In this document: piece after piece, positions 958 through 41,736 of the stretch
How the letters are laid out: each line of letters opens with the position of its first letter
How positions within the stretch are numbered: the first letter of the stretch is position 1
NCBI GenBank assembly: GCA_002684495.1
Contig: NYVG01000029.1
Span: 88,496-152,495 of the forward strand
Source of the DNA: Gammaproteobacteria bacterium
Lineage (GTDB): Bacteria; Pseudomonadota; Gammaproteobacteria; Pseudomonadales; Azotimanducaceae
Direction: 5' to 3'
Length of the DNA: 64,000 bases
Notes under the pieces: generated by a model
What the model was told of the DNA's origin: nothing
Database searches by the model: none
What the model saw: the letters and a program-made list of their open reading frames with translations, nothing else
Translations under genes and position numbers: made by a program

Positions 958-1647
958 ATGGAAACGACGTTGAACCCAAACGATTACGTTGGCGTTACTT
1001 TCTGGATCATTTCTGCGGCCATGGTCGCAGCTACCTACTTTTTCACTGTTGAACGCGACCGCGCTGAAGGCAAGTGGAAAACCTCACTAACTGTTGCCGC
1101 TATGGTGACTGGTATTGCAGCTATTCATTACTTCTACATGAGAGGTGTATGGATAGAGACAAATGAAAGCCCCTTAGTATTTCGTTATGTCGACTGGCTG
1201 CTGACGGTGCCATTGCAAATCGTTGAGTTCTATCTGATCTTGGCGGCTATTGCTGTAGTTCGCGCAGCGCTATTCTGGAAGTTGTTGATCGCATCGTTAG
1301 TGATGCTGATATTCGGCTATCTTGGAGAGCTTGGCGCCATGAACTATTGGCTAGCATTTGCCATTGGGATGGCCGGATGGATATACATTATCTATGAGAT
1401 CTTCGCTGGTGAAGCCAGTCAGATCAGCGCCAGTCAGGGGACTCAGGCGAGTCAGACAGCGTTCAACGCTTTGCGAATCATTGTGACTGTCGGTTGGGCG
1501 ATATACCCCCTCGGTTACATTGCCGAGCCAGCGTTCGGCGCTGCGGCATTGAATGTCATTTACAACCTTGCGGACTTCGTTAACAAGATCGCATTTGGTG
1601 TAGTGATTTGGATAGCAGCTACGTCTTCTTCACAGTCGAAGGCGTAA
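958..1647 (+). CDS. Proteorhodopsin, blue-absorbing type, proton pump
   Basis: A 229-residue seven-helix microbial rhodopsin. Retinal would bind Lys210 in helix G (DFVNKIAFG). Helix C reads RYVDWLLTVPLQ and carries Asp79 as proton acceptor (D97 of the reference green proteorhodopsin), Thr83 and Glu90 as proton donor (E108). This D-T-E set marks a light-driven outward proton pump. His57 matches the conserved His75. The spectral tuning position (105 in reference numbering) is Gln87, which predicts blue absorption, as in open-ocean or deeper-water strains. The start has a good AGGGAG site. The usual cleavable signal peptide is absent, and an in-frame TGA at 943-945 rules out a longer start. The retinal genes follow directly. 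Confidence 0.97.
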   Translation: METTLNPNDYVGVTFWIISAAMVAATYFFTVERDRAEGKWKTSLTVAAMVTGIAAIHYFYMRGVWIETNESPLVFRYVDWLLTVPLQIVEFYLILAAIAVVRAALFWKLLIASLVMLIFGYLGELGAMNYWLAFAIGMAGWIYIIYEIFAGEASQISASQGTQASQTAFNALRIIVTVGWAIYPLGYIAEPAFGAAALNVIYNLADFVNKIAFGVVIWIAATSSSQSKA

Positions 1648-1668
1648 TGCGGTAACCCTTTCCGGTTG

Positions 1669-1691
1669 CGGGCGTCACAAAGTGGCGCCCG
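1669..1691 (+). promoter_or_regulatory. Strong intercistronic hairpin between proteorhodopsin and crtE
   Basis: The two arms CGGGCGTCAC and GTGGCGCCCG pair over 10 bp (one G-T wobble) around an AAA loop, 21 bp after the opsin stop. No T-run follows, so it does not look like a classical intrinsic terminator. By analogy with other pigment operons it could protect the opsin message from 3' decay or reduce read-through, giving far more opsin than carotenoid enzymes. That role is inferred. Confidence 0.6.
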
Positions 1692-1756
1692 TCATCGGCC
1701 TACTTCTTCAAAGAGTAATAAGACAAGTTAACGAACAGTCACCAGGAGTCCTGATT

Positions 1757-2731
1757 ATGAGCAACGACTTTAAGGCTCAGCTTGAGGCGACGATCCGTAA
1801 ATTTGGTGATGATGCGGGCACAGTCCGAGGAGCAGCAGCTCACCACTTATCTCGCTGCGGTAAACGCACCCGCGCTAAGTTCACTTTTACCGCCGCTAAG
1901 AATTTTGAACATCCTGATGTGCTAATAAAGATCGCGGCAGCGTCTGAATTGATACATGAAGCCTCGATAGTGCACGACGACGTCCAAGACCGAACCCCCG
2001 TTCGTCGAGGCCAGCCTACCGTTTGGAAAAAATACGGCAGTAATACTGCGCTGTTGTTAGGCGACCATCTGATTGCTGCGGCCTTTCGTTGTTTGGCGGC
2101 AAGTGGCTGTCGCCATGAGGCGATCTCGGGTTTAGTGCAGGTCATGGCTGTGGCGGTGAGTCGTGCCAGCTCGGGACAACTGCAGCAACTTAAGTTACAC
2201 AGCAGCGGTGCGGCGTTGTGCAATCAATACCAGGCCATCGCGCGGCACAAGACCGGTTCGCTGCTCGCATTGCCGTTGCAATTCGCCGCGGTGTTGGCTG
2301 CAGGCGACGAACGCATGATTAACGCCGCACAAAGGTGTGGAGAACAATTGGGTTTGGCGTATCAAATTTTAAATGACCTCGAGCCACTATTGCTTGGCGG
2401 GTCTTATGCCGAGCACGAGGACATCGTTGATCGTGTGGTTACAGCGCCTGTAGTGGCGGCGAAACAACTGAGTGGCGAGGAAAAAGATTTATTCTTAGCA
2501 CTGGTTGAACGGCGCAAATTGCGCGAGTTGGCTCGTCAGCACTGCATTGCTTGGGCGGAAGATGCTGCTGATGCTGCGCGCAATTATGCCGCTTGGTTGC
2601 CGACACCGGTGGAGATGGTTGTACGGGATTTTATTGCTGACCATATAATCCAGCCCTTGCCCTGTGAGCCGTTGCCAAAGCGCTTGCCTACGGGCCCACG
2701 AACACCGCTACTCGCAACAGCAAACAACTGA
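1757..2731 (+). CDS. crtE: Geranylgeranyl diphosphate synthase-like prenyltransferase
   Basis: A 324-residue trans-isoprenyl diphosphate synthase, expected to build C20 geranylgeranyl diphosphate for phytoene. The first aspartate-rich motif is intact (DDVQD, residues 74-78, followed by RRGQPTVW), as are GKRTR near residue 35 and KTGSLLALP near 165. The second motif, normally DDxxD, reads NDLEP (206-210), which is unusual. The ATG at 1757 is chosen because AGGAG lies 8 bases upstream; the longer frame from GTG 1682 would start inside a hairpin. The stop TGA overlaps the crtI start by one base, showing translational coupling. Confidence 0.9.
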   Translation: MSNDFKAQLEATIRKFGDDAGTVRGAAAHHLSRCGKRTRAKFTFTAAKNFEHPDVLIKIAAASELIHEASIVHDDVQDRTPVRRGQPTVWKKYGSNTALLLGDHLIAAAFRCLAASGCRHEAISGLVQVMAVAVSRASSGQLQQLKLHSSGAALCNQYQAIARHKTGSLLALPLQFAAVLAAGDERMINAAQRCGEQLGLAYQILNDLEPLLLGGSYAEHEDIVDRVVTAPVVAAKQLSGEEKDLFLALVERRKLRELARQHCIAWAEDAADAARNYAAWLPTPVEMVVRDFIADHIIQPLPCEPLPKRLPTGPRTPLLATANN

Positions 2732-4227
2732 TGAGCAAGCACGCGGTAGTTATTGGCAGTGGCTTTGGCGGCATGGCGGCAGCGCTGCGAGCCCGCAAAT
2801 TGGGTTTTGAAGTCACCCTGATAGAGCGTTTGGAGCAACTTGGTGGCCGTGCACGTACGTTCAAACGGGACGGGCATACCTTTGACGCTGGTCCAACGGT
2901 TATTACCGCACCGTTCCTGTTTGAAGAATTGTTTGAGCTGTTCGATCGCCAACTGCCTGAGTACGCAGAAATATTGCCGGTATCGCCGTGGTATCGATAC
3001 GAATTTAGTGACGGCTCGCGCATGGATTACGGCGGCACGGTTGAAGACACCATAAGTGAAATCGAGCGGTTGAGTCCCCAAGACGTTGAAGGCTACAAAA
3101 GACTACTCTCGCACTCCAAGCGAATATTTGATGTTGGCTTTGGGGAGTTAGCACATGTGCCTTTTAACCGGCTCTGGTTCATGCTCAAGCAGGTTCCAGC
3201 GTTGGTGCGGTTGGGGTGTTATCGCACAGTTTGGCAGTTTACTAAGCGCTATCTAAAAGATGAGCGGCTGCGTCGCGCCTTTAGCATTCAGCCGCTGTTG
3301 GTGGGCGGTAACCCGTTTAACACCACAAGTATCTATTCTTTGATTCATTATCTCGAGCGGCGTTGGGGCGTGCATTTTCCGCGTGGCGGCACGGGCGCAC
3401 TGGTCGCAGCCATGGGGCGCCTTATGCAAGAGGTTGGGGTCAATGTAAGGCTTAATCAAGAAGTGCAGAAGATCTGCACTGAAGATGGCCAAGTTACGGG
3501 TGTGCAATTCGCCAACGGCGAGTCGGTGGCTGCTGACCTAGTTATTTGTAATGGCGACCCAGCACAGATTTATCGATCGTTAGTGCCTCGCGCAGACCGT
3601 AAGCGATGGACTGATCGGCGCATTGATGCGCTGAAATACTCTATGGGCTTGTATGTTCTTTACTTTGGTACCACCTGCCAATATGAGGACGTAGAGCACC
3701 ACACCATAGTTTTTGGTGAGCAGTATCAAGAATTATTGCAGCGGATTTTTGCGGGCGAACCGGCAGGTGACGATCTGAGTTTGTATCTGCACCGTCCAAC
3801 CGCAACAGATCCAACACTGGCGCCTGACGGCAAAGATACGTTCTATGTATTAGCCCCGGTGCCGAACCTACAGCGCCATGACTGGCTGGCCGCACGAGAC
3901 CAAGTGCGCGAGCGGGTCATTGATATATTAGAAGAACGAGTTTTGCCTAATTTGCGTCAACACATGGACGTTTGTTTTGATCTTGATCCGACCCAATTCG
4001 ATGCAGACTATGGATCGCGCTGGGGTGCAGGTTTTTCCATAGCGCCGATCTTTACTCAGTCTGCGTACTTCCGGTTCCACAACCGCTCCGAAGACATTAA
4101 GAACCTCTACTTAGTTGGGGCGGGCACTCACCCTGGAGCGGGCGTGCCTGGGGTCCTTAGTTCAGCCAAAGTTGTTGAGCATTTGCTCAAAGAGGATTTT
4201 CCACAACCCACGGGGGCAATGTTATGA
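2731..4227 (+). CDS. crtI: Phytoene desaturase
   Basis: A 498-residue flavoenzyme of the CrtI family, which converts colourless phytoene to lycopene by successive desaturations, probably at the membrane. The dinucleotide-binding motif GSGFGG is at residues 9-14, followed by the Glu of IERLEQLGGRA. The C-terminal carotenoid-oxidoreductase signature (VGAGTHPGAGVPGV) begins near residue 462. Length fits the bacterial family. It starts on the last base of the crtE stop and ends with a 4-bp ATGA overlap into crtB. Confidence 0.96.
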   Translation: MSKHAVVIGSGFGGMAAALRARKLGFEVTLIERLEQLGGRARTFKRDGHTFDAGPTVITAPFLFEELFELFDRQLPEYAEILPVSPWYRYEFSDGSRMDYGGTVEDTISEIERLSPQDVEGYKRLLSHSKRIFDVGFGELAHVPFNRLWFMLKQVPALVRLGCYRTVWQFTKRYLKDERLRRAFSIQPLLVGGNPFNTTSIYSLIHYLERRWGVHFPRGGTGALVAAMGRLMQEVGVNVRLNQEVQKICTEDGQVTGVQFANGESVAADLVICNGDPAQIYRSLVPRADRKRWTDRRIDALKYSMGLYVLYFGTTCQYEDVEHHTIVFGEQYQELLQRIFAGEPAGDDLSLYLHRPTATDPTLAPDGKDTFYVLAPVPNLQRHDWLAARDQVRERVIDILEERVLPNLRQHMDVCFDLDPTQFDADYGSRWGAGFSIAPIFTQSAYFRFHNRSEDIKNLYLVGAGTHPGAGVPGVLSSAKVVEHLLKEDFPQPTGAML

Positions 4228-5141
4228 ACCTCAAATCAAAAAATCCTGAAATGATATTCAAGGCCAATGCGAAAACGTTTTCGCTGGCCGCTCGCTTCCT
4301 GCCGAGGGCGCGCTACGATGCTGTGGCGCGTTTATATTACTTTTGCCGATACATGGACGATCTGGCGGATGCCGCACCGGCTGGCTGCAATCATGCAAAG
4401 CTCGTTGCTCTGCGTGATGACTTTATTCGTGGCGACAGCGCTGATCCGGTGATGGCGGATCTCCTAGAGCTGCAACATCACTTCGGTATTCCGGCGAACC
4501 TAGTTATAGATTTCGTCGATGCCCTCATCGCCGATCAATGGCCGCGGCATTTGCAAAGCCAAGATGAACTTGTGCGTTTTTGTTATGGAGTGGCCTCCAC
4601 CGTAGGTTTGATGATGTGTCACTTATTCGGCGTAAAAAACCCACGGGCCTACCCATTTGCTGTGGATTTGGGTGTGGCAATGCAAATGACCAACATCTGT
4701 CGCGATATCCTCGAAGATGCAGAGCGCGAAAGGGTATATCTCCCTGCCGAGATGCTTGAAGGCCGGGTGTGCGCCGCTGGCCTTGTTGCGGGAGATCCAA
4801 TGCAACGAGCTAATGCTTATACAGGGGCTGTGCGTTTATTGGGTATTGCGGATGAATACTATGCCAGTGCGGCCCAAGGTTATGGGTTCTTACCGGCTGC
4901 GGTCCGTCAGGCGATTAAGATCGCCGCGCGTTTGTATCAGGCGATTGGGGAAAAGGTGGTGGCTGCGCCTAAGCAGTACTGGCATCGCCGCACTGTAGTA
5001 CCGGCAACGACCAAGTGCCGGCTTATGTGCGAATTGTTAGGTCGCCGCATTACCGAAGGGTCTAGTACGTTAGTGATTCATCGGGCTGAACATCGACCGC
5101 GCTTGCACAAGGCGTTGGATCCGCAACGCTTCGGCACCTGA
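4224..5141 (+). CDS. crtB: Phytoene synthase
   Basis: A 305-residue squalene/phytoene synthase that condenses two geranylgeranyl diphosphates head to head into phytoene. Both Mg-binding aspartate motifs are present: YYFCRYMDDLAD at residues 38-49 (Asp45, Asp46, Asp49) and RDILEDAERERVYLP from residue 161 (Asp162 and Asp166). The start ATGA overlaps the crtI stop. Its own stop at 5139-5141 is directly followed by the possible GTG start of crtY. Confidence 0.96.
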   Translation: MNLKSKNPEMIFKANAKTFSLAARFLPRARYDAVARLYYFCRYMDDLADAAPAGCNHAKLVALRDDFIRGDSADPVMADLLELQHHFGIPANLVIDFVDALIADQWPRHLQSQDELVRFCYGVASTVGLMMCHLFGVKNPRAYPFAVDLGVAMQMTNICRDILEDAERERVYLPAEMLEGRVCAAGLVAGDPMQRANAYTGAVRLLGIADEYYASAAQGYGFLPAAVRQAIKIAARLYQAIGEKVVAAPKQYWHRRTVVPATTKCRLMCELLGRRITEGSSTLVIHRAEHRPRLHKALDPQRFGT

Positions 5142-5159
5142 GTGGGACGAGTCCGCGCG

Positions 5160-6326
5160 ATGCATAACTCGGATACCTTAGCTAGCGCCGACGTGGCGAT
5201 CGTCGGCGGCGGTATGAGTGGCTTGGCGCTGGCTTGCCAGATAGATCGTATTAACAACTGCGCATCACGTCGTATAAACAAGGCTGTGGTGATCGAACCT
5301 CGCAGCAAATACCAGCGCGACAAAACCTGGTGTTATTGGCGCAGAGGGCCCGGCCTATTCGATGGAGCAATCAGTCACTCCTGGTCGCGCTGGGAGATTC
5401 GCTCAGCAGGACGAGTGACGACGAGTGCTTGTCCTGAAACGCCCTATGTGCGGGTCGATAGCGGCCATTATTATGAATCTGCGGTCCAGCGTCTCGCGAG
5501 TTCAAATACTGTAGGCCTGAAACTAGGTGTGCGCGCTGGACAAGTAAGCCGAGACCAGCGACAGCTTTACATTGATACTGACCGAGGTCAGGTGCGCGCC
5601 GATCGAGTAATCGACACGCGGCCGCGACCGATTCCTGAAGGCACTCTGTTGCAGCATTTTTTCGGCTGGGAAATCGAAACCGACAAGGACGTATTCGACC
5701 CGACGACAGTCACACTTATGGATTTTAGTGCCGGTACTGAAGAAGAAGTGCACTTCTTCTATGTGTTGCCCTTTAGCTCACGCAGAGCTCTGGTTGAGAC
5801 CACACATTTTTCTAAGCAACAGCTTTGCGAGTCGCAATATAAAGACGAGCTTCGCGGCTACTTGCGCCAACGCTTTGCCCTATCGAATTGGCATATTTGC
5901 AGCAGCGAGGGCGGTATTCTGCCCATGCCAAAACGGCCGCCTGCTCAGCTTGAGGGTCAGCCCGATGTTGCTGTGTTCGGCCTGCATGGGGATACAGCAA
6001 AGCCCTCTAGCGGATATTGTTATCCCCATGCGCAACAGCAGGCTGAGCGCATGGCGGAGTGGTTATCTGCAGGTGCGAATAGTGGGCCGCCGGCAGCAAG
6101 GCATAGCGTTGCACGCTGGTTTGACGCTGTATTCGTAACTTTTCTTGAGAACCGGCCGGCTCAGGCTCCTGCAGTTTTTTTTCGCTTATTTCAGCGGGTC
6201 AAACCCGCCGCTTTGGTGCGGTTTCTCAGTGATGGTGCACAGTTTGCGGACTACCTGCGGGTAATATGGGCGATGCCGAAAGCTGTCATGATGCGCGAGG
6301 CGCTGCGCTATGCGCTCGGCCGTTAA
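5160..6326 (+). CDS. crtY: Lycopene beta-cyclase (CrtY type)
   Basis: A 388-residue flavoprotein cyclase that closes both ends of lycopene to give beta-carotene. An N-terminal nucleotide-binding motif (AIVGGGMSGLALA, GGG at 16-18) is followed by VIEPRSKYQRDKTWCYW, matching the conserved D-x-T-W segment of CrtY. The start is uncertain: GTG 5142 lies directly behind the crtB stop and would add six residues, while ATG 5160 fits the family N-terminus better. Neither has a strong ribosome binding site, so coupling to crtB translation is likely. The last 17 bases overlap blh. Confidence 0.92.
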   Translation: MHNSDTLASADVAIVGGGMSGLALACQIDRINNCASRRINKAVVIEPRSKYQRDKTWCYWRRGPGLFDGAISHSWSRWEIRSAGRVTTSACPETPYVRVDSGHYYESAVQRLASSNTVGLKLGVRAGQVSRDQRQLYIDTDRGQVRADRVIDTRPRPIPEGTLLQHFFGWEIETDKDVFDPTTVTLMDFSAGTEEEVHFFYVLPFSSRRALVETTHFSKQQLCESQYKDELRGYLRQRFALSNWHICSSEGGILPMPKRPPAQLEGQPDVAVFGLHGDTAKPSSGYCYPHAQQQAERMAEWLSAGANSGPPAARHSVARWFDAVFVTFLENRPAQAPAVFFRLFQRVKPAALVRFLSDGAQFADYLRVIWAMPKAVMMREALRYALGR

Positions 6327-7158
6327 GCCCTACACATGGTTTTTGCTGGGCTCAGTGATTGTTTTGTGTGCAGCGGCTTGGATGGTTGAGCAAAGTCCGT
6401 TGCTGATTTTTTTGTGCAGTGCGCTGGTTTTGGTCACAGGTTTGCCCCATGGCGCATATGACTGGGTCATTATGCGCACGCACTACAAGAAGGGGCGGTT
6501 TGGCGCTGCAGTAGCTGGATATGTGGCTCTTGTGCTCTTGGTGATTGCACTTTGGTTAATCGTACCCCTGGCCTTATTGGGTGTGTTTTTGGCGTACTCG
6601 GCTTATCACTTTGGCGACTCCGATTTACCGAATGCATCTCTATTGCATCAATTCACTTGGGGCATGGCGATCATTGGCTTGCCAGGTTTATTAGCGGGCG
6701 CAGACGTTCAGGCGCTGTTCAGCGTGCTTACCGAGAAGTCCATTGCATCGGCGCCGATCAGTGCTTTGGGAATAATGGGTTGCATTGCGGCTTTCACCCA
6801 TGTGTGTTCTGCTCCCAAGCGCTGGGTGTCGATCGGTTTACTGGGCGTCTATGGTGCTGTTTGTTCGGGCGCCGGCGCGTTGGCAGGTTTTGCTTGTTAC
6901 TTTGCATTACTGCATAGCCCGATCCATTTAACGCGCTGGCGTCACGCGTTGAATCAGCAGGGCTCTGTGACCATCCTAATGCTTAGTTTGGTCGTGATGG
7001 GCGCTATCGCAGGAGCCGTGTGGATGAGCGCAGCTGACCCTGCAGTTACATTTGAAACCATCAATCAAACGACCTTTCGATACACCTTTATAGCGTTAGC
7101 TGCGCTGACGGTGCCGCATATGGTTTTGCTGAGTCACGCTAATCGATGCATTTATTGA
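6310..7158 (+). CDS. blh: Beta-carotene 15,15'-dioxygenase, Brp/Blh family
   Basis: A 282-residue, very hydrophobic membrane enzyme that cleaves beta-carotene into two retinal molecules, the chromophore of the upstream opsin. Conserved histidines expected to bind iron are visible: His47 (GLPHGAYD), His100 (AYHFGDSD), His202 and His206 (LHSPIHLTRW) and His270 (TVPHMVL). It overlaps crtY by 17 bases and is the last gene of the phototrophy block. The next gene is on the opposite strand. No terminator was found behind it. Confidence 0.95.
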   Translation: MRSAVKPYTWFLLGSVIVLCAAAWMVEQSPLLIFLCSALVLVTGLPHGAYDWVIMRTHYKKGRFGAAVAGYVALVLLVIALWLIVPLALLGVFLAYSAYHFGDSDLPNASLLHQFTWGMAIIGLPGLLAGADVQALFSVLTEKSIASAPISALGIMGCIAAFTHVCSAPKRWVSIGLLGVYGAVCSGAGALAGFACYFALLHSPIHLTRWRHALNQQGSVTILMLSLVVMGAIAGAVWMSAADPAVTFETINQTTFRYTFIALAALTVPHMVLLSHANRCIY

Positions 7159-32366: not shown

Positions 32367-33920
32367 ATGCCACGGGTCGGTATCGACGATATTGCGATTT
32401 ACGTGCCGCGGTTGTATCTCGCTATGCAAGATTTCGCCAAGCTAAGAGGCGCTGATTTCGAAAAATTGAGCCAAGGTCTTGGTCTCTCCGCCATGGCCAT
32501 TCCTGACGCTCATGAAGATGCGGCGACTATGGGCGCGAATGCCGTTGCGCAATTGATTGACAGTAATTCAATCGATCCGCGCACGATCGGGCGCATATAT
32601 CTGGGTACTGAGTCTGCACTCGATGGCGCGAAACCCACCGCAACCTACATCATGGACATGCTGCAGCAAAAGTACGCTGATGACTATGGTCCCGGATCGC
32701 TCAGCCACTGTGATGTTGTTGATTTAACCTTTGCCTGTATAGGCGCGGTGGATGCGCTGCACAACATGTTGGATTGGGTGGTGCGCGGTGGTGCTGAGGA
32801 AGATCGTGTTGGAATTGTTGCCTTTGCAGACCATGCCAAGTACGACCTAGGTTCTAGTGGTGAATATACCCAGGGAGCAGGTGGTGGTGCGATACTGATC
32901 AAACATAATCCGAGATTGTTGGCGATTGCGGATATTTGGGGTGTTGCCACCACGCCGGTTCATGACTTTTTCAAACCCCGCCGAGAAATCCCTGTTCGTT
33001 CGATGCTGGAAAGCGTGTTTGAATTGGTCGAACAAAGTGGCGAGACCGTTACCAAGGGATTGGTCGATAAAATTCTTAGTGCTTTGCCAGCCTCCGATAA
33101 CAGCACAGCCCAGCTATTTGCAAACGAAACAATTACGCTGCATAGCGATACGCCCGTATTTGATGGGCAATTCTCGAATAGGTGTTATGCGGAAGCGGTT
33201 AAAAGCGCATTCGCAGACTTCACAAAAAAGGCGGTGCGCAGTGGTCGTTTTGATCCTGAAAGTGACAAACCCCTTACAGACCGGTGGTCCAGGCTTGTGG
33301 TGCATTTGCCCTATGCTTATCAAGGCAAACGAATGTTGCCGGATGCTTTTCAATTCGATCGCAGCCACTTGCCGGATTGGCAGGCTGTTGTTGCAGACAT
33401 TGGCTCGGCGCCTGTGGCAGAACACTACGAAGATTCTCCAGATGGGCGTGAGGACTTTGCTAAGGCGAAGGATCAATACCGGCGGTTGCTCGCAAATACT
33501 CCGCAATTTCGTGCATTTGTCGAGCGCAAGCTTGAAAAGTCGCAAAGAGCATCAAGCCTTGTCGGCAATCAATACACAGGTTCTATATTTTTGGCGCTAG
33601 TATCGGTACTCGAGAGTGATTACCGAGAACAAGTGGATTTGCGCGGTCAGACTCTTGGATTTTGTGGCTACGGCTCTGGTGCCAAGGCCAAGGTATTCGA
33701 AGGTGAGGTGCAGGATCATTGGCAACAAGTGACTGGGAAATTTCGCTTATTCGAAAGATTGGCAGACCGGCACGCTATTGACGCCGCAGCGTATGAATCC
33801 CTTCACCGTGGAGTCAGAAAAAAATCTCTCCTGCGTCCAAGGAGAGAATTTGTATTGTTAGGCGTAGGTGCAGGCCGAGGGCTCGAGGGTCAACGCAGCT
33901 ACGCTTGGGTCGATGAATAG
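32367..33920 (+). CDS. Hydroxymethylglutaryl-CoA synthase family protein
   Basis: A 517-residue thiolase-fold enzyme predicted to condense acetyl-CoA with acetoacetyl-CoA, or a related acyl pair, into an HMG-CoA-type product. The catalytic triad can be placed: Glu82 (YLGTESALDGAKPTA), Cys124 (DLTFACIGAVDAL) and His313 (VVHLPYAYQGKR). The NQYTGSIFLALVSVLE and CGYGSGAKAK segments also match. It is longer than the roughly 390-residue bacterial MvaS, with an extra C-terminal part. AAGGA precedes the ATG. No mevalonate kinase or HMG-CoA reductase gene is in the window, so the pathway is unclear. Confidence 0.85.
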   Translation: MPRVGIDDIAIYVPRLYLAMQDFAKLRGADFEKLSQGLGLSAMAIPDAHEDAATMGANAVAQLIDSNSIDPRTIGRIYLGTESALDGAKPTATYIMDMLQQKYADDYGPGSLSHCDVVDLTFACIGAVDALHNMLDWVVRGGAEEDRVGIVAFADHAKYDLGSSGEYTQGAGGGAILIKHNPRLLAIADIWGVATTPVHDFFKPRREIPVRSMLESVFELVEQSGETVTKGLVDKILSALPASDNSTAQLFANETITLHSDTPVFDGQFSNRCYAEAVKSAFADFTKKAVRSGRFDPESDKPLTDRWSRLVVHLPYAYQGKRMLPDAFQFDRSHLPDWQAVVADIGSAPVAEHYEDSPDGREDFAKAKDQYRRLLANTPQFRAFVERKLEKSQRASSLVGNQYTGSIFLALVSVLESDYREQVDLRGQTLGFCGYGSGAKAKVFEGEVQDHWQQVTGKFRLFERLADRHAIDAAAYESLHRGVRKKSLLRPRREFVLLGVGAGRGLEGQRSYAWVDE

Positions 33921-34045: not shown

Positions 34046-34807
34046 ATGCGATTAGAGGATAAAGTGGCGGTCATAACCGGCGGCGCCGGTGGCATAGGGG
34101 AAGCGGCAGCCGCGAGATTTCTTGAAGAGGGAGCCAGCGTGTTGCTGGTTGATCTAGATGCCGGCGCTTTGGCGGAGGTCGCTGCGCGTTTGGGTAGCAA
34201 TCGGGTGAGCTATCATGTGGGCGACGTCACCAAGGCGGCGGACAATCAAGCCATGATTGATACCGCCACCGAGCGTTATGGTGGCGTAGACATATTTTTA
34301 GCCAATGCGGGCATTGAGGGCGATGTGGTGAGTTTGCTTGACTACCCAGAGCAACGCTTTGATGAGCTTATGGCGATCAACGTCAAAGGCCCGTTCTTGG
34401 GGTTGCGTGCCGCAATTCCGGCAATGCGTCTGCGCGGTGGCGGTAGTGTCATCATTACCTCCAGTATTGCCGGTCTTACCGGCGCCCCCCGGTTAGCGCC
34501 TTATGCGACGAGTAAACATGCGGTTATTGGGTTGATGCGATCGGCTGCCAAGGAGTTTGCGCCGGAGGGCATACGCGTCAATACCGTTAATCCCTCGCCT
34601 GTGAATACGCGCATGATGCGCTCGATCGAACAAGGTATTAGTCCAGACGAGCCTGAAGAGGCCATGCAAATGATGGCGGCAGGCATACCGATGCAGCGTT
34701 ATGCAGAGCCACGGGATATAGCCAACATAATGCTATTTTTAGCCAGTGACGAAAGCGCTTTTATTACCGGTTCCGTCTACATGGCCGACGGGGGTAGTTC
34801 TGCGTAG
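34046..34807 (+). CDS. Short-chain dehydrogenase/reductase
   Basis: A 253-residue classical SDR. The cofactor motif TGGAGGIG is at residues 11-18, NAG is at 87-89, and the catalytic Ser140, Tyr153 and Lys157 lie in TSS and YATSK. Asp36 after the second strand (LLVDLD) suggests NAD rather than NADP. ATG 34046 has AGGAGGGGGAG just upstream, much better than ATG or TTG starts before it. The substrate is unknown. It stands alone between the HMG-CoA synthase gene and purC. Confidence 0.9.
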   Translation: MRLEDKVAVITGGAGGIGEAAAARFLEEGASVLLVDLDAGALAEVAARLGSNRVSYHVGDVTKAADNQAMIDTATERYGGVDIFLANAGIEGDVVSLLDYPEQRFDELMAINVKGPFLGLRAAIPAMRLRGGGSVIITSSIAGLTGAPRLAPYATSKHAVIGLMRSAAKEFAPEGIRVNTVNPSPVNTRMMRSIEQGISPDEPEEAMQMMAAGIPMQRYAEPRDIANIMLFLASDESAFITGSVYMADGGSSA

Positions 34808-34998
34808 CGCTGGAGAGTGTGGCGATAAAGTGGTTGAGGAAATGGCTCTCTGGTCTTAATTTGTTGGGTTCGGCGGCTTTGGTGCCGACTCAGGAATGTC
34901 GTAAAATTGCTGCCGGAGCAAAGCAGTAAAACGCTAGAATAGCGGGTAACAATAAATGCAACGCGATACCGCGTTAGACAATTTTAAAAGGAGCAACA

Positions 34999-35922
34999 GT
35001 GGCCACAGCGGTACTTAGTACGGATCTTAGTCTGCCCAATAAGCGATCAGGCAAGGTTCGTGATCTCTACGATGTGCAATTAGCGTCAGGTGAAGACGCC
35101 ATACTCATCATTGCCACAGATCGGATCAGCGCATTTGATGTCGTAATGGGTAATGGCTTGCCGGGTAAGGGTGTTGTGCTGACCCAGATTTCCAAGTTTT
35201 GGTTTGATCATTTTGCCAGCACGGTGCCCCATCATTTGCTCAGCACTGATGTAAATGATGTGCCGGGATTGACCAGTGCTGAACGGGAACAGCTGCGTGG
35301 GCGCATTATGCTGTGTCGCCGCACCGAAGTGGTACCCATCGAGTGTATTGCCCGTGGTTACATTACTGGCAGTGGTTGGAAGGATTACCAGCGGTCCGGT
35401 TCGGTCTGTGGTATTGCCCTACCAGAAGGTTTGCGTAACAGCGATCGTTTGCACGAGCCGTTGTTCACACCGTCAACGAAGGCGACCGACGGCCATGATG
35501 AAAACATCAGTTTTGATGAGGGCGCTGAAGTAGTGGGCGCTGAACTGATGGCTTGGTTGCAAGATAAAACATTGTCTTTGTATACCGCAGCGCGCGACTA
35601 CGCTGCTGAGCGGGGCATTATCCTGGCTGATACTAAGTTTGAGTTTGGGCAAATCGATGGTCAGGCGGAGCCGCTGTTGATCGATGAGATATTTACCCCA
35701 GACAGCTCGCGGTTTTGGCCCGCAGACGATTGGGAGCCAGGCCGAGAGCAGAATAGTTTTGATAAGCAGATTGTGCGCAATTATCTCGAGACTGTGGTAA
35801 GTGCCGGAGACTGGGATAAAAACCCGCCCGGGCCAGAACTGCCAGAGGCAGTGGTCGAACAAAGCATTGCCCGTTATATAGAGGCGTACAACCGTCTAAC
35901 AGGCGACCAACTGACCCTTTAA
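34999..35922 (+). CDS. purC: Phosphoribosylaminoimidazole-succinocarboxamide synthase (long form)
   Basis: A 307-residue SAICAR synthetase that joins aspartate to CAIR in purine synthesis. KRSGKVRDLYDV, ATDRISAFDVVM, EVVPIECIARGYITGSGWKDY and LIDEIFTPDSSRFW are diagnostic. Many gammaproteobacterial PurC proteins are about 235 residues; this is the longer yeast/alphaproteobacterial-like form. It starts with GTG behind AAGGAG. The carboxylase operon begins 27 bp downstream, so transcription may continue into it. Confidence 0.96.
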   Translation: MATAVLSTDLSLPNKRSGKVRDLYDVQLASGEDAILIIATDRISAFDVVMGNGLPGKGVVLTQISKFWFDHFASTVPHHLLSTDVNDVPGLTSAEREQLRGRIMLCRRTEVVPIECIARGYITGSGWKDYQRSGSVCGIALPEGLRNSDRLHEPLFTPSTKATDGHDENISFDEGAEVVGAELMAWLQDKTLSLYTAARDYAAERGIILADTKFEFGQIDGQAEPLLIDEIFTPDSSRFWPADDWEPGREQNSFDKQIVRNYLETVVSAGDWDKNPPGPELPEAVVEQSIARYIEAYNRLTGDQLTL

Positions 35923-35949
35923 TAGGGTCAGACGCGTCGGGGGCGCAGT

Positions 35950-37290
35950 ATGCTGGCTAAGATTCTGGTTGCCAATCGTGGGGCGATTGCGCGGCGCATA
36001 ATTCGCGCCTGTCAGGCGCTGAACATCGCCAGTGTTGCTGTGTATTCGGAAGCGGACAGAGACGCCCCCTATCTTGCCGAAGCTACCCAGGCTGTGCCGC
36101 TGCGCGGTAATAGCGCCGCTGAATCTTATTTAGATCAACAACAACTTTTGGCTGCGGCAGTGGCATCCGGCGCCGATTCAGTGCATCCGGGGTATGGTTT
36201 CCTTGCAGAAAATGCAGGTTTCGCCGCTGCAGTGATTGCTCAGGGTATGACCTTCATTGGCCCGGATCCCCATTGGATCGAACAGATGGGTGATAAGGTC
36301 AATGGCCGTCGAATGCTTGCTGAAGCGGGCATGCCGGTGTTCGCTGGAAGCGGGTTGATTGATGATATGGCCGCGGCGGAAGCTTTCGTTGCCAAAGTAG
36401 GATTGCCGGTTGTAGTTAAGCCTTCCGGGGGTGGCGGCGGCATTGGCATGCATGTAGTGCGCAGCCCTAAAGAATTGCCGAGTGCTATTAATGCTGCGGT
36501 GGAAACTGCTCAGCGCGCCTTTGCATCGGCGGGGGTTTTTTTGGAGCGTTGGATTGAAAAGCCGCGCCATATCGAATTCCAAATTTTGGCGGATCTGCAT
36601 GGTAACGCTATGCATCTCTACGAGCGCGATTGCTCCGTGCAGCGGCGACATCAAAAATTGATTGAAGAAAGTCCCGCACCAGGGCTTGAGCGTGGGCAAT
36701 TGGAGCAACAGGCCCAGCAGTTCAGTGATATATGCCAGGGTCTTGGATACAACAATTTGGGTACGGTTGAGACCTTGTTTGCCCCCGACGGTGGGTTAGG
36801 TTTTCTGGAGATGAATACTCGTATACAGGTCGAGCATGGGGTTACGGAAGAAGTTACCGGCGTCGACTTGGTGGCCGCGCAGATAACTTTGGCGGCGGGT
36901 GGTCAACTGCCGTGCCAAACGCCATTGCAAGGTTTTGCGATGGAGGTCAGGCTCTACGCTGAAGACTCGCAGACCCTATTTCCATCCACGGGCACGCTGA
37001 CAGTTTTTCGGCCACCGAAATTACATGGCGTGCGCATCGAGACGGGCTATCGTGAAGGTCAGGTGGTGACGCCTTACTATGATCCGCTGCTGGCCAAAAT
37101 TATTGCGCGGGGCGCGACTCGGGAACAAGCCATCGGGCGGTTGGCTGTAGCGCTGCGCGCCTTTGCTGTCAGGGGCGTAAGCACTAATGCACAATTGCTG
37201 CTTAACATTTTACAGGATGACTTGTTTGTTAAAGGTCAGGTGGATACTGGCATGGTGGCGCGGATTTTAGCCCAGCAAAATGTTCATTGA
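35950..37290 (+). CDS. Biotin carboxylase subunit of an acyl-CoA carboxylase
   Basis: A 446-residue ATP-grasp biotin carboxylase that carboxylates biotin with bicarbonate and ATP. Recognisable parts are ILVANRGAIARRIIRAC, HPGYGFLAENAGFAA, the Gly-rich ATP loop KPSGGGGGIGM, ERDCSVQRRHQKLIEE and the metal/substrate site FLEMNTRIQVEHGVTE. It has no carrier domain; that is encoded by the next gene. Length equals AccC, but the operon content points to an acyl-CoA carboxylase other than acetyl-CoA carboxylase. Confidence 0.93.
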   Translation: MLAKILVANRGAIARRIIRACQALNIASVAVYSEADRDAPYLAEATQAVPLRGNSAAESYLDQQQLLAAAVASGADSVHPGYGFLAENAGFAAAVIAQGMTFIGPDPHWIEQMGDKVNGRRMLAEAGMPVFAGSGLIDDMAAAEAFVAKVGLPVVVKPSGGGGGIGMHVVRSPKELPSAINAAVETAQRAFASAGVFLERWIEKPRHIEFQILADLHGNAMHLYERDCSVQRRHQKLIEESPAPGLERGQLEQQAQQFSDICQGLGYNNLGTVETLFAPDGGLGFLEMNTRIQVEHGVTEEVTGVDLVAAQITLAAGGQLPCQTPLQGFAMEVRLYAEDSQTLFPSTGTLTVFRPPKLHGVRIETGYREGQVVTPYYDPLLAKIIARGATREQAIGRLAVALRAFAVRGVSTNAQLLLNILQDDLFVKGQVDTGMVARILAQQNVH

Positions 37291-37349
37291 TGGATTGTGT
37301 AAAGCATAGGTACGTGCCATAACAGCAACGTAAAAAAATAGGAGGGAAC

Positions 37350-37571
37350 ATGGCAAGAGTTGAAGTAGAGAGCGAGATCACTGGCAATGTTTGGAAAGTT
37401 CAGGTCAGTGCGGGCACAGAGGTGGCAGAAGGCGATGTGCTGATAATTCTTGAGTCGATGAAAATGGAAATTCCAGTGGAGTCGCCAGTAGCCGGCAGCG
37501 TGCAGGAGGTGCTGGTACGACCAGAAGATCAAGTCGAAGAGGATCAGCTGTTGTTGGTCATCGACGCATAA
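37350..37571 (+). CDS. Stand-alone biotin carboxyl carrier protein (73 aa)
   Basis: A 73-residue biotinyl domain with the biotinylation site ESMKMEIP (Lys38), preceded by GDVLIIL and followed by PVAGSVQEVLV. It is a bare domain without the N-terminal linker of AccB, so it works as a free carrier between the carboxylase and carboxyltransferase encoded in the same operon. An AGGAGGG site precedes the ATG. Confidence 0.93.
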   Translation: MARVEVESEITGNVWKVQVSAGTEVAEGDVLIILESMKMEIPVESPVAGSVQEVLVRPEDQVEEDQLLLVIDA

Positions 37572-37623
37572 CGAGGCTGTGTTGCAAAGCCAAAGCAGTA
37601 GGTGCAAGCAGGAGTAAGCAGAG

Positions 37624-38451
37624 ATGCAAGAAGAATTGGTTACAGTTGAGATCGAAGATGGTGTAGCGGATGTGCGGCTTAACCGGCCCGAAAAGTACAA
37701 TGCGTTAAGCCAGCCTATGTTCAAAGCAATCATTGAGACGGGTGAGCGATTGCGCGACGAAAAGTCTTTGCGTGCGGTGGTTCTGTCAGGCAACGGGCGT
37801 GGCTTTTGTGCCGGTCTGGACATGGGCAGTTTTGCTAAAATGGGCGACAGCGATAATTCGGCCGAGGGCAGTAAGGCGGATACGCCTCGCTCGCTACTCG
37901 ATACCGATGGCCGAGTCGAAAATTTTGCCCAACGGCCTGCGCTGGTGTGGAAGTACTTACCGGTACCGGTGATCGCAGCATTGCATGGAGTCGCCTACGG
38001 TGCTGGTGCCCAAGTGGCTCTAGGTGCCGACATTCGTATTGCTGCGCCCGATCTAAAGCTGTCCATTATGGAGATAAAATGGGGCCTAGTGCCGGACATG
38101 AGCATTACTCAAACCATACGCGATATCTTGCCTATGGATGTTGCGAAGCAACTTACCTTTACCGGACAAATTCTCAGCGGTCAGGAGGCTCGGCAGTTAG
38201 GGCTTGTCACTCAGATTGCAGAAGATCCCCATGCCGAGGCCATGAGCATGGCCCGAGAGATTGCCAGTAAGTCGCCTGGAGCGATTCGGGCGGCCAAGCA
38301 GCTATTTGAAACAGCATGGCATGCTGATGCGAAAACTGGACTTGAGTTAGAAGCTAAGTTGCAGGTCGGTTTGATTGGGTCAGCCAACCAACGCGAAGCC
38401 ATCGCTGCGAACTTTGCGAAACGCGCGCCGGAATTTCGCGACCCCGAGTAG
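37624..38451 (+). CDS. Enoyl-CoA hydratase/isomerase (crotonase family)
   Basis: A 275-residue crotonase. DVRLNRPEKYNALS, the oxyanion-hole segments GRGFCAGLDM and LHGVAYGAGAQVALGADIRI, and the active-site Glu region IMEIKWGLVPDMS are present. The family hydrates or isomerises enoyl-CoA thioesters. Its place between the carrier and carboxyltransferase genes suggests a substrate or product of the carboxylase, for example an enoyl-CoA derived from a branched or short acyl chain. Confidence 0.92.
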   Translation: MQEELVTVEIEDGVADVRLNRPEKYNALSQPMFKAIIETGERLRDEKSLRAVVLSGNGRGFCAGLDMGSFAKMGDSDNSAEGSKADTPRSLLDTDGRVENFAQRPALVWKYLPVPVIAALHGVAYGAGAQVALGADIRIAAPDLKLSIMEIKWGLVPDMSITQTIRDILPMDVAKQLTFTGQILSGQEARQLGLVTQIAEDPHAEAMSMAREIASKSPGAIRAAKQLFETAWHADAKTGLELEAKLQVGLIGSANQREAIAANFAKRAPEFRDPE

Positions 38452-38455
38452 AGCT

Positions 38456-40009
38456 ATGAGTTGGGAACAAGAAGTTAAAGAGATTGAGCGGCGCCGGTAT
38501 CTGGCCCAGCAGCAGGGTGGCAAGGAAGGGATAGCCAAACAGCATGCGCGTGGGCGAATGACCATTCGTGAGCGCATAGGCGTATTGCTGGACAAAGGCA
38601 GTTTTCAGGAGCACGGACGTGCTACGGCCAGTCCGGTGTATGACGATAACGGCGAGTTGATTGAATACGTGCCGGCCAATTATGTGGTGGGCTTCGGTCA
38701 AGTCGACAAACGTCGCATTGTTGCAGCTGGCGAAGACTTTACCCTCAAAGGCGGTTCACCGAATGCCGCCGGATTGCGTAAGAGCGTCTATGCAGAACAT
38801 CTGGCGGTGCAGTACAAAACCCCATTGGTGCGGATGCTCGAAGGTGGCGGTGGCAGCGTCAAGGGTGGCGCCAAGAAGGGCGGCACAGTCGGGGAACCAG
38901 TATTTACTGAGCCACGCTTTAAAATCATTGCTGACGCGATGGGTACTGTGCCAGTGGCCTCGGCTGCCCTAGGTGCTGTTGCGGGATTCCCGGCGGGACG
39001 TTTGGTCGCGTCGCACTTTTCGGTGATGACTGAACATACGGCACAGGTGTTAATCGGTGGGCCCGCGCTGGTTACACGAGCGCTTGGCGTAAAAATGACA
39101 AAGGAAGAGTTGGGCGGGGCGGCTGTGCATCTACGTAGCGGCATTGTCGATAACTTGGCCGCTGATGAGCATGATGCATTGGCTCAGATTCGCCGATTCT
39201 TGTCGTACCTGCCGAGTAATGTTTGGCAACGCACCCCGCGTTATCCCAACGAAGATCCGGTGCAGCGTATGGAGCAAGCGCTGTTGGAGGCGGTTCCGCG
39301 CGACAGTAATAGCGGATTCGATATGCGCGCAATCATCCACATGATTGTAGATAAAGAGAGTTTTTTTGAGATCGGCGAGTTTTATGGCCCTAGCCAAATC
39401 TGTGGTTTCGCTACTTTGGCCGGTCAACCGGTGGGTATCTTGGCCAACGACTGTATGCACTATGCCGGGGCGATGACCGCAGAAGCGGCGCAAAAGTACC
39501 GCCGCTTTGTTGAAATGTGTGACACCTTTCATTTGCCGGTGGTCAATTTTGTGGATCAGCCCGGATTTATGATTGGGCCGGAATCCGAACGGGCAGGAAC
39601 CATCCGTTATGGCATGGCCGCGGTTGCGGCGGCGGCGCAAGCGACTGTGCCTTGGGCGGTAATTCAAGTGCATAAAGGGTTTGGTGTTGCTACCGCAGCG
39701 CACTACGCCCCTGGGGCGTACGTATTGGCTTGGCCTTCGGTAGAATCTGGCGCGCTGCCGATAGAGGGCGGTGTTGCCGTGGCCTTTCATCGCGAGATCG
39801 GGGCGGCAGCTGATCCTGATGCAAAGCGTGCTGAGTTGGAGGACAGGTTGCGCGAAGCGCGTTCACCGTTCCCACGGGCTGAGTCTTTTGCTGTTCATGA
39901 ACTAATTGATCCGCGGGAAACGAGGCCCGTTTTGTGTGATTGGATCGAGTGGATTCAACCCTCGTTGGATACACTGACAGGGCCAACTCAATTTCCTATA
40001 CGACCTTAA
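38456..40009 (+). CDS. Acyl-CoA carboxylase, carboxyltransferase subunit
   Basis: A 517-residue carboxyltransferase of the propionyl-/methylcrotonyl-CoA carboxylase beta type. It transfers carboxyl from biotin to an acyl-CoA. The N-terminal KQHARGRMTIRERIGVLLD, the first-half oxyanion region GGGGSVKGG, and the C-terminal GFMIGPESERAGTIRYG are typical. ATG 38456 starts 4 bp after the crotonase stop; the long in-frame extension from 38375 lies inside crotonase and is rejected. The acyl substrate cannot be read from sequence alone. Confidence 0.92.
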   Translation: MSWEQEVKEIERRRYLAQQQGGKEGIAKQHARGRMTIRERIGVLLDKGSFQEHGRATASPVYDDNGELIEYVPANYVVGFGQVDKRRIVAAGEDFTLKGGSPNAAGLRKSVYAEHLAVQYKTPLVRMLEGGGGSVKGGAKKGGTVGEPVFTEPRFKIIADAMGTVPVASAALGAVAGFPAGRLVASHFSVMTEHTAQVLIGGPALVTRALGVKMTKEELGGAAVHLRSGIVDNLAADEHDALAQIRRFLSYLPSNVWQRTPRYPNEDPVQRMEQALLEAVPRDSNSGFDMRAIIHMIVDKESFFEIGEFYGPSQICGFATLAGQPVGILANDCMHYAGAMTAEAAQKYRRFVEMCDTFHLPVVNFVDQPGFMIGPESERAGTIRYGMAAVAAAAQATVPWAVIQVHKGFGVATAAHYAPGAYVLAWPSVESGALPIEGGVAVAFHREIGAAADPDAKRAELEDRLREARSPFPRAESFAVHELIDPRETRPVLCDWIEWIQPSLDTLTGPTQFPIRP

Positions 40010-40027
40010 TCATTATTGGAGAACCAC

Positions 40028-40900
40028 ATGACCGTTTCATTTGCAGATCAAGTTGCCATCGTAACCGGTGCCGGAGGCGGCCTAGGTCGGTGCCATGCGC
40101 TGGAGCTGGCGCGTCGAGGCGCTAAGGTTGTAGTAAATGACCTAGGCGGTGCTATGGATGGTAGTGGGGATTCATCCGCTGCGGCAGAGGCTGTGGTTGC
40201 CGAAATTAAAGCCATGGGCGGTGAAGCCTTGGCAAATGGGGGTTCGGTGTCGGATCGTGCCGGTGCCCAAAGTATGGTCGACGATGCCATGAATGCCTGG
40301 GGCCGAGTTGATGTGCTCATCAATAACGCCGGTATTTTACGTGACAAGTCGTTCTCGAAAATGACTCTCGACGACTTTGATATGGTGGTGAACGTGCATT
40401 TACTTGGCGCTGCCTACTGCTCTCATGCTGTATGGCCAATCATGCGTGAGCAGAACTATGGCCGTATATTGATGACTACTTCGCCCACTGGCTTATACGG
40501 TAATTTTGGTCAAACCAATTACGGTGCTGCTAAGTTGGGGCAAGTTGGTCTTATGAACAGCCTTAAGATTGAAGGTGCAAAAAACAATATCCATACCAAT
40601 ACCATTGCGCCTGTGGCGGCGACGCGGATGACAGAGAATTTGATGCCCGATGAAGTACTGCAAAAGCTTGGGCCAGAGCTGGTCACCCCCGCAGCATTGT
40701 TTCTGGTAAGCACCGATGCGCCGAATGGGGTTATTTTGCAAGCACAGGGCGGCACATTCTCTCTTGCGGGTATTTTTGAAAATGACGGTGTGAATATTGG
40801 TGTTGATGCGACTGTTGAAGACATTGCTGCCAATTATGCAACTATCGTTGATATGAGTGCGCTGAAGCCCAGAGGCATGTTGCAACTTAACTCAATGTAG
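40028..40900 (+). CDS. SDR of the multifunctional-enzyme-type hydroxyacyl-CoA dehydrogenase group
   Basis: A 290-residue short-chain dehydrogenase. The cofactor motif TGAGGGLGRCHALELARRGA followed by VVNDLGG is the pattern of peroxisomal multifunctional enzyme type 2 hydroxyacyl-CoA dehydrogenases, as are NNAGILRDKSF and the active site TSPTGLYGNFGQTNYGAAK. It probably oxidises a 3-hydroxyacyl-CoA made by the crotonase upstream. ATG 40028 has TGGAGAA eight bases before it. It is the last clear gene of the carboxylase operon. Confidence 0.88.
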   Translation: MTVSFADQVAIVTGAGGGLGRCHALELARRGAKVVVNDLGGAMDGSGDSSAAAEAVVAEIKAMGGEALANGGSVSDRAGAQSMVDDAMNAWGRVDVLINNAGILRDKSFSKMTLDDFDMVVNVHLLGAAYCSHAVWPIMREQNYGRILMTTSPTGLYGNFGQTNYGAAKLGQVGLMNSLKIEGAKNNIHTNTIAPVAATRMTENLMPDEVLQKLGPELVTPAALFLVSTDAPNGVILQAQGGTFSLAGIFENDGVNIGVDATVEDIAANYATIVDMSALKPRGMLQLNSM

Positions 40901-40922
40901 GCGTACCTAGTGCGAAGCTGAT

Positions 40923-41111
40923 ATGGCCGGGATTGTGATGACATTGGTTGGGAGTTTTCTACTCGCCGCTGTACTTTGGTTGATTATTGGCAGTCGTTTT
41001 CGGTTCGCGTCCGGGCGTTCCGGAAACGATTTGCTTAACATAGCGGCCTATTTTGGCGGTTGCCTACCTATCGCATTTGTAATTATTTTCTTTGGTATCG
41101 GTGGTAGTTAA
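40923..41111 (+). CDS. Small two-helix membrane protein (62 aa)
   Basis: A 62-residue hydrophobic protein with two predicted membrane helices (about residues 4-22 and 40-58) joined by a basic loop (GSRFRFASGRSGND). No family is recognised. It begins 23 bp after the SDR stop and ends just before the methyltransferase gene, so it is probably co-transcribed with its neighbours. Confidence 0.6.
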   Translation: MAGIVMTLVGSFLLAAVLWLIIGSRFRFASGRSGNDLLNIAAYFGGCLPIAFVIIFFGIGGS

Positions 41112-41115
41112 CAGC

Positions 41116-41736
41116 ATGATGCAATTGCCCCTTGATCCCGAACAAGTGAAAGGATTCCTGCACCCTGACGAAGGCGCGTGTCTATATCAGTTGGCACGCA
41201 CCTCTTCGGTGTTGGGGCCATCATTGGAAGTCGGTAGTTATTGCGGCAAGTCGACGTTGTACTTAGGTACGGGTGTACGCGATGGCGGTGGCTTGTTGTA
41301 TGCGTTGGATCATCATCGTGGTTCAGAAGAACATCAGCTGGGTGAGGAATATCATGACGCTGAGTTGTATGACATGCAGCTTCAGCAAGTGGATTCATTG
41401 CCGACGTTTCGCCGCACTCTCGCGTTAGCACAGCTTGAGTCGACGGTATTACCTATTGTGGCTAAAAGCGCTCAGGCTGGGCGCTATTGGCAAACCCCGC
41501 TCGCGCTGGTATTCATCGACGGCGGTCACAGCTTCGAGGCTGCGCTTACGGATTACCGTACTTGGGTGCCACATATCTTACCGGGCGGCTATCTGGCTAT
41601 TCATGACATTTTTCCTGATCCGGCCGATGGCGGTCAGGCACCTTATGAAATTTATAAGTTGGCTATGGCTTCGGGATTATTTGAGGCCGTTGAAATGCGT
41701 CGAACTTTAGGGGTGCTAAGGCGTATTGCACACTGA
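41116..41736 (+). CDS. Class I SAM-dependent methyltransferase
   Basis: A 206-residue protein of the Methyltransf_24 type. The SAM-binding motif LEVGSYCGKSTLYLG, the acidic loop YALDHHRGSEEHQ and the strand LALVFIDGGHSFEAALTDY followed by LPGGYLAIHDIF match this group, often found with sugar or natural product genes. ATG 41116 (or 41119) is used; GTG 41092 would overlap the previous gene. The end overlaps the converging alpha/alpha-barrel gene by 21 bp. Confidence 0.82.
   Translation: MMQLPLDPEQVKGFLHPDEGACLYQLARTSSVLGPSLEVGSYCGKSTLYLGTGVRDGGGLLYALDHHRGSEEHQLGEEYHDAELYDMQLQQVDSLPTFRRTLALAQLESTVLPIVAKSAQAGRYWQTPLALVFIDGGHSFEAALTDYRTWVPHILPGGYLAIHDIFPDPADGGQAPYEIYKLAMASGLFEAVEMRRTLGVLRRIAH

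Follow-up and report, generated by a model that had tools for sequence, protein, structure and literature searches.

Biotin-dependent acyl-CoA carboxylases have been described as enzymes of two subunit types in which the biotin carrier and the biotin carboxylase (BC) share one chain (PMC3199775). Two lineages are distinguished in part of another account, an alpha lineage that comprises the propionyl-CoA and acetyl-CoA carboxylases (PCC and ACC) and a gamma lineage that comprises the methylcrotonyl-CoA and geranyl-CoA carboxylases (MCC and GCC), the beta subunits of the latter having an extra N-terminal helix (PMC4673880). Free carriers are also on record, Bacillus subtilis YngHB being biotinylated in vitro and encoded beside genes proposed, in the relevant portion of the report, to specify a methylcrotonyl-CoA carboxylase (PMC4016012), and sets with separate genes for BC, carrier and carboxyltransferase (CT) occur on plasmids of Burkholderiales and Rhodococcus. 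Here, a five-gene locus of similar anatomy was examined in a 64,000-nucleotide stretch of DNA (the window; contig NYVG01000029.1 of assembly GCA_002684495.1, positions 88,496 to 152,495) from a gammaproteobacterium of the family Azotimanducaceae. Its BC, 73-aa carrier and CT probably constitute a single biotin-dependent, three-polypeptide acyl-CoA alpha-carboxylase of a split-carrier clade, accompanied by two lineage-specific accessory genes that encode a crotonase-fold protein and a short-chain dehydrogenase/reductase (SDR). The five genes are as follows:

35950..37290, plus strand: stand-alone biotin carboxylase (BC), 446 aa, with Pfam domains Biotin_carb_N, CPSase_L_D2 and Biotin_carb_C
37350..37571, plus strand: bare biotin carboxyl carrier protein (BCCP), 73 aa, PF00364 (Biotin_lipoyl) at 61.8 bits
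37624..38451, plus strand: crotonase-fold protein of the PRK07509 type, Pfam ECH_1, NF005699 at 333.3 bits
38456..40009, plus strand: carboxyltransferase (CT), 517 aa, PF01039 (Carboxyl_trans) at 297.9 bits
40028..40900, plus strand: MFE-2-type SDR, 290 aa, Pfam adh_short, with matches to 2et6 and 1gz6

All five genes are read in one direction, in the order BC, BCCP, crotonase, CT and SDR, and the gaps between them, recomputed from stop to start, are 59 bp (37290 to 37350), 52 bp (37571 to 37624), 4 bp (38451 to 38456) and 18 bp (40009 to 40028). An earlier note on this DNA had given the same order, strand and gaps, and its account of a carboxylase devoid of a carrier domain, a bare 73-residue carrier, a crotonase, a carboxyltransferase and an SDR agrees with the Pfam domains. 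Carboxylase activity and complex formation by the first two and fourth products are predicted, with BC carboxylating biotin on K38 of the carrier using ATP and bicarbonate, after which the free carrier would travel to the CT, and the CT would carboxylate an acyl-CoA at its alpha carbon to give a substituted malonyl-CoA. The crotonase would probably perform an isomerase-type step and the SDR would oxidise a (3R)-hydroxyacyl-CoA, both as accessory acyl-CoA enzymes.

By Pfam, the 446-aa BC has neither a carrier nor a BT domain, and a separate carrier is encoded nearby; since the chain stops without a carrier, it is not the BC-BT-BCCP alpha subunit that is the hallmark of PCC. Nor is the arrangement that of a single-chain long-chain acyl-CoA carboxylase, as BC, CT and carrier are three reading frames, and the score of BC against the AccC model TIGR00514 (473.0 bits versus a cut-off of 626.5) places it outside the heteromeric AccABCD type. 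Residues were counted over alignment rows drawn from the 80 related loci described below, with at least 45% identity and at least 85% coverage, the window included, the row totals varying with contig ends and limits. Of 14 BC positions checked, which we take to be the catalytic ones, 13 are invariant in 53/53 rows and the remaining one (H234) is present in 46/53. The BC is 50-51% identical to the separate BCs of Variovorax and Cupriavidus, the best fused BC reaching 44%. The carrier retains the conserved motif ESMKMEIP, in which K38, present in 63/63 rows, is the predicted site of biotinylation. It is 52-55% identical to the Variovorax and Cupriavidus carriers, as opposed to 31% for the AccB of its own genome, and the solved chain that it matches best is 1z6h, presumably the biotin/lipoyl attachment protein of B. 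subtilis. Its closest NCBIfam models are NF004547 and NF006079, but its scores of 71.0 and 68.9 bits fall short of their respective cut-offs of 75 and 95, and hence the curated cut-offs do not assign it to the BLAP, PRK05889 or PRK08225 carriers.

Among solved structures, the CT matches 6ybq, a PCC beta chain, best (267.8 bits), compared with 163.0 bits for the MCC beta chain 3u9r, and 77 or 78 of the 78 rows retain its EGGGG stretch at residues 129-133. In the alignment with PCC beta, residue 8 of the window CT pairs with chain residue 6 onward, and because the alignment begins so near the N-terminus the long helix that marks MCC and GCC beta subunits is missing. The higher PCC-type score, the absence of an N-terminal extension and a position on another tree branch set the CT apart from the gamma lineage; given the first two of these, action on the alpha carbon of an acyl-CoA is the better guess. 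In a tree built from 33 CTs, the window CT falls within a clade of 24 rows (support 100/99) that also holds plasmid-encoded CTs of Variovorax, Cupriavidus, Tistrella, Rhodococcus and Diaphorobacter, and which is separate from the PCC, MCC and Atu-locus types of the genus and from the single-chain types. A separate BC and a carrier of 70-73 aa are among the annotated neighbours in four of the five plasmid records, the Tistrella record being without annotation. The window CT is 45-46% identical to the Variovorax and Cupriavidus CTs and 32% to the best CT outside the clade, so that for BC, carrier and CT alike the nearest comparators tested were the split sets of these two genera.

The window's own genome (denoted G000) encodes another CT of the split clade elsewhere, at G000:C22:361250 (L139:6230-7885, minus strand), which shares 43% identity with that of the window. 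Its neighbours include two acyl-CoA dehydrogenases and one histidine phosphatase, and BC or carrier matches nearby are limited to a single-chain protein some 6 kb away. As a guess, this orphan CT may also draw on the BC and carrier of the window. A wider proposal, which we regard as tentative and less likely than not, is that the clade represents a functional class of its own, made up of alpha-carboxylases whose substrate has yet to enter the textbooks and is none of acetyl-CoA, propionyl-CoA, methylcrotonyl-CoA and geranyl-CoA. One free BC/carrier pair would then serve two different CTs of a single genome, and the product would, in this marine family, be linked to the metabolism of (3R)-hydroxyacyl-CoAs.

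The conservation of the set was examined in the best 80 of 89 confirmed related loci, which were located by exact peptides of the window CT, and the sample therefore leans towards close relatives. Neighbours were counted by tblastn with the window proteins, 'not found' denoting that the 8 kb upstream or the 5 kb downstream held no match above set identity limits, and loci with a short flank or a cut CT were left out (23/80 for upstream counts, 22/80 for downstream counts and 34/80 for the two-flank table). Near the CT, BCCP was found in 48/57 loci, BC in 42/57, the crotonase in 33/57 and the SDR in 30/58, and all four surround the CT in 19 of the 46 two-flank loci. Within that two-flank table, the crotonase and SDR are present in 16/17 and 17/17 loci, respectively, where CT identity is at least 80%, in 12/26 and 7/26 where it is 70-79%, and in 0/3 and 0/3 where it is below 70%. 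Thus the five-gene set is stable among close kin, which speaks for a link between its members, but unstable further out. Over all loci with enough flank, the crotonase was not found in 24/57 and the SDR not in 28/58. Of the 15 two-flank loci that have the carrier but not the crotonase, 14 show a distance of 16-156 bp from the end of the carrier alignment to the CT, the exception being L076 at 2865 bp. The crotonase is found without the SDR in five loci and the SDR without the crotonase in one, which suggests that the crotonase was the first of the two to join the core; both are seemingly accessory genes acquired within this family. In the order as a whole, the CT was detected at an E-value of 1e-120 in 7/7 genomes of its own family and in 1/187 others (46% identity). 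Since the five-gene set recurs in related genomes with invariant residues it is not a product of chance, and its conservation gives it the look of a working gene set.

With respect to the accessory proteins, the crotonase passes the cut-off of NF005699 (333.3 versus 249 bits), which places it in the PRK07509 family, and its best solved relative is 4og1. In the alignment with 7eum, an enoyl-CoA hydratase/isomerase, Q130 takes the place of the first catalytic Glu and the second is kept as E150, and D158 lies opposite an Asp of the 1,2-epoxyphenylacetyl-CoA isomerase 4fzw; the roles of these residues are assumed by us from the crotonase literature. All three are unchanged in 48/48 rows. The protein accordingly lacks the Glu pair of enoyl-CoA hydratase 1 and is probably isomerase-like, which weakens the case for a hydration step. 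The SDR matches 2et6 (417.4 bits) and 1gz6 (259.8 bits), both MFE-2 (3R)-hydroxyacyl-CoA dehydrogenases, and has S152, Y165 and K169 in 36/36 rows. These best matches, together with the S-Y-K residues, uphold the label of MFE-2 type that the earlier note had given it, and the protein is predicted to be a (3R)-hydroxyacyl-CoA dehydrogenase. Crotonase hydratases yield (3S) products, so that the pair appears stereochemically mismatched for a hydration-oxidation relay.

It could be argued that the five genes form one catabolic module of the Liu/Atu kind, in which an unsaturated acyl-CoA is carboxylated at its gamma carbon, hydrated by the crotonase and oxidised by the SDR. The tight gene order and spacing, the loci with the full set and the near-constant presence of crotonase and SDR at high CT identity would all fit, and there are parallels in the Diaphorobacter split carboxylase, which is near an SDR 42% identical to that of the window and a MaoC hydratase, and in the B. 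subtilis free carrier gene among proposed methylcrotonyl-CoA carboxylase genes, as given in that portion of the source (PMC4016012). Set against these are the alpha-carbon lineage of the CT, the invariant Gln at the first hydratase Glu position and the frequent absence of crotonase or SDR from related loci, and no acyl-CoA dehydrogenase, CoA ligase or thiolase is among the genes at window positions 34046-41736. The (3R) type of the SDR, as against (3S) crotonase products, tells in the same direction. Additionally, the crotonase is not confined to this setting: at an E-value of 1e-60, 43 of the order's 194 genomes gave a match, and 37 of these genomes belong to other families. Flanks of about 2 to 6 kb on either side were read for 12 of the 37; they contained BC, carrier or CT in 0/12 cases and a weak SDR match (28%) in one, which weighs against a shared pathway. 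A single module therefore seems unlikely. What survives of the earlier note's proposal is that the acyl-CoA carboxylase is split and has a crotonase and an MFE-2-type dehydrogenase alongside, while its single pathway of carboxylation, hydration and oxidation is disfavoured by Gln130, the (3R) SDR and the patchy co-occurrence.

The locus might instead encode a split form of PCC, as the best solved match of its CT, to PCC beta chains, would suggest. An Asp (D422/D427) has been tied to the use of propionyl-CoA and is described, in the part of the source concerned, as not the sole determinant of specificity (PMC7835884). The equivalent of D422 of Streptomyces coelicolor PccB (ScPccB) falls opposite a gap in the window CT when aligned with 6ybp, and opposite A414 when aligned with 3ibb, which itself reads Ala there, and none of 78 rows has an Asp at CT positions 411-417. 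Moreover, the CT is only 31-32% identical to the PCC beta encoded beside the mutase. A methylmalonyl-CoA mutase match is absent from the own genome and present in 11/40 genus genomes, and in 3/3 genus genomes sampled a fused PCC pair lies beside the mutase, with the window-type CT on another contig. A PCC role is thus decidedly improbable. Least probable of all, to the point of being very hard to credit, is that the window set is the housekeeping ACC, standing in for the AccC, AccA and AccD that the family lacks. It is true that accC was found above cut-off in 0/40 genus genomes (controls 10/14), accA in 0/150 family genomes (controls 7/14) and accD in 1/150 (controls 6/14), and that the window BC is the sole stand-alone-sized frame among the seven BC matches of its own genome. 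However, that genome also encodes a 1601-aa protein (G000:C33; L136:5605-10410, plus strand) that matches the solved AccADCB acetyl-CoA carboxylase 9kkm at 1697.5 bits; it has domains of the ACCA and BC types and, in its C-terminal part, the carrier motif EAMKI, albeit with no Biotin_lipoyl match at an E-value of 1e-5. The window-type CT (at least 60% identity) is present in 119/150 family genomes, and several genomes that are 93-96% complete, such as G010, G042, G083, G097, G113, G133 and G140, have no CT match at an E-value of 1e-100. The idea of the window BC and CT as a replacement ACC was dropped on account of the AccADCB-type protein and these near-complete genomes.

The best accA matches listed for family genomes were mostly in frames of about 1600 aa, and two frames (446 and 470 aa) scored 575-583 bits for accC in G167 and G115. 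By contrast with the other subunits, accB is kept in 33/40 genus genomes and was matched in 94/150 family genomes. In the own genome it is a 137-aa frame with the motif ESMKM (G000:C25:29284-29694; L135:9285-9695, minus strand), followed with a 4-bp overlap by prmA, accC being missing there; of 12 genus loci read, 11, the own one among them, have the accB-prmA order, and the twelfth stops at a contig end. This orphan AccB was considered as a partner of the window BC and CT, but no link emerged: at the thresholds applied, G041 and G082 have accB without a CT match and G006, G007, G009 and G013 have the CT without an accB match. The family-wide switch from a four-gene ACC, with the orphan accB often kept, offers a test case for the replacement of an essential enzyme. 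Other carboxylases in the own genome comprise an MCC-type pair on contig C48 (839.0 bits to 3u9r), a pair beside an AtuA protein on C46, the CT of which matches MCC beta at 482.5 bits and GCC beta at 432.4, and three single chains, each with BC, carrier and CT. As these and other loci of the genome or genus fit them better, the textbook roles of housekeeping acetyl-CoA carboxylation, propionyl-CoA carboxylation for the mutase pathway, and methylcrotonyl-CoA or geranyl-CoA carboxylation are probably none of them that of the window set.

Several observations count against the interpretation preferred here, that of a three-polypeptide alpha-carboxylase of the split-carrier clade. BC was not found near the CT in 15/57 loci and BCCP not in 9/57, and in L123, L129 and L130, all with CT identity below 70%, no BC, BCCP, crotonase or SDR was found within the limits, a 33% carrier match in L130 aside. 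The separate BC of Rhodococcus (43% identity) is no nearer to the window BC than is a fused PCC alpha subunit (44%). In the CT tree, the group of Rhodococcus and Variovorax is supported at 93/76 only, a second Cupriavidus CT (L183b), encoded next to a split BC, sits on a very long branch outside the clade, and the program warned of several long branches that meet; consequently the deep order of the tree is unsure. The enzyme may, in addition, have a broad range that includes propionyl- or acetyl-CoA, in so far as the part of PMC7835884 on specificity does not make the Asp the sole determinant. Finally, any substrate named for the enzyme is a guess, and no characterised member of the clade with a tested substrate was found in the open-access papers searched.

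Three further genes flank the set, and these had been left out of the earlier description:

34999..35922, plus strand: purC (SAICAR synthetase), PF01259 at 243.5 bits, NF010568 above cut-off
40923..41111, plus strand: 62-aa reading frame, syntenic in relatives
41116..41736, plus strand: Methyltransf_24 protein, PF13578 at 78.7 bits

The end of purC is 27 bp from the start of BC, making it a possible first gene of the transcript, and purC was found by tblastn upstream of the CT in 39/57 related loci with at least 8 kb of upstream flank. Among loci with at least 5 kb of downstream flank, the 62-aa frame, which has no Pfam or NCBIfam match at an E-value of 0.001, was seen in 42/58 and the Methyltransf_24 gene in 29/58. 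Scans for promoters (6 candidate sites, every one of them on the minus strand, where 6.5 would be expected) and terminators (7 against 7.7 expected) gave results at chance level, and the operon is accordingly deduced from spacing and synteny only. Many relatives have a reading frame of about 120 aa between purC and BC (a cluster of 34 loci, median 125 aa; for example L060 and L061), which the same interval of the window is without. Further upstream, at window positions 32367-33920, is a gene for a 517-aa HMG-CoA synthase homologue, which was matched in two pieces and is below the cut-off of every NCBIfam model matched (244.0 bits versus 800 for a haloarchaeal model). Its homologue was found by tblastn solely in L077 among the 80 loci, some of which end short of that place. 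Window positions 958-7158 contain a light-pump and retinal cluster, in which a rhodopsin gene precedes those for a polyprenyl synthetase, an amine-oxidase-type flavoprotein (presumably phytoene desaturase-like), a squalene/phytoene synthase, a lycopene cyclase and a beta-carotene dioxygenase.

Comparison with better described enzymes shows where the likeness ends in each case. The PCC of S. coelicolor (PccB; 6ybp/6ybq) belongs to the same CT family and alpha-carbon lineage, but its carrier is fused to BC, its specificity Asp is absent from the window CT, and the PCC beta of the genus is about 32% identical to the latter. The MCC and GCC enzymes (LiuBD, AtuCF) are likewise biotin-dependent and are often encoded beside a crotonase, as is the pair at the own AtuA locus; their CTs, however, are 27-30% identical to the window CT and occupy another tree branch. 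The SDR shares with the MFE-2 proteins (2et6, 1gz6) the S, Y and K residues and the stretches NAGILRD and GNFGQ.NY, and differs from them as a stand-alone domain without a fused hydratase 2. For the free carrier, YngHB (BLAP) of B. subtilis is a precedent.

The closest systems are the plasmid-borne split sets of Variovorax sp. SRS16, Cupriavidus sp. EM10, Diaphorobacter sp. HDW4B and Rhodococcus qingshengii, which are annotated by domain. Each has a separate BC (about 440-475 aa), a carrier of 70-73 aa and a CT of about 515-530 aa in one neighbourhood, with identities to the window proteins of 43-51% (BC), 43-55% (BCCP) and 41-46% (CT), although in Variovorax the CT is about 6 kb from BC and carrier. 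Their neighbours are CoA transferases, AMP-binding proteins, a thiolase, tripartite transporter proteins and GntR or TetR regulators, whereas the window set adjoins purC and includes the crotonase and SDR; in Diaphorobacter, the SDR and the MaoC/MFE-2 hydratase protein near the split set are a matched pair. The plasmid records name members of the clade by domain alone, or the carrier as an ACC subunit, and carboxylases of the superfamily are often misannotated, according to a passage in PMC4673880. Acetyl-CoA or propionyl-CoA roles for the clade fit poorly with the specificity residue, with its place in the tree and with the genome context. The earlier note had contrasted the split with the usual fused carrier and suggested that the set may be a new catabolic module; the separate BC, carrier and CT of the Burkholderiales and Rhodococcus plasmids and the free YngHB carrier make the split a known anatomy, and the window set is a new member of the split carboxylases already known in other bacteria.

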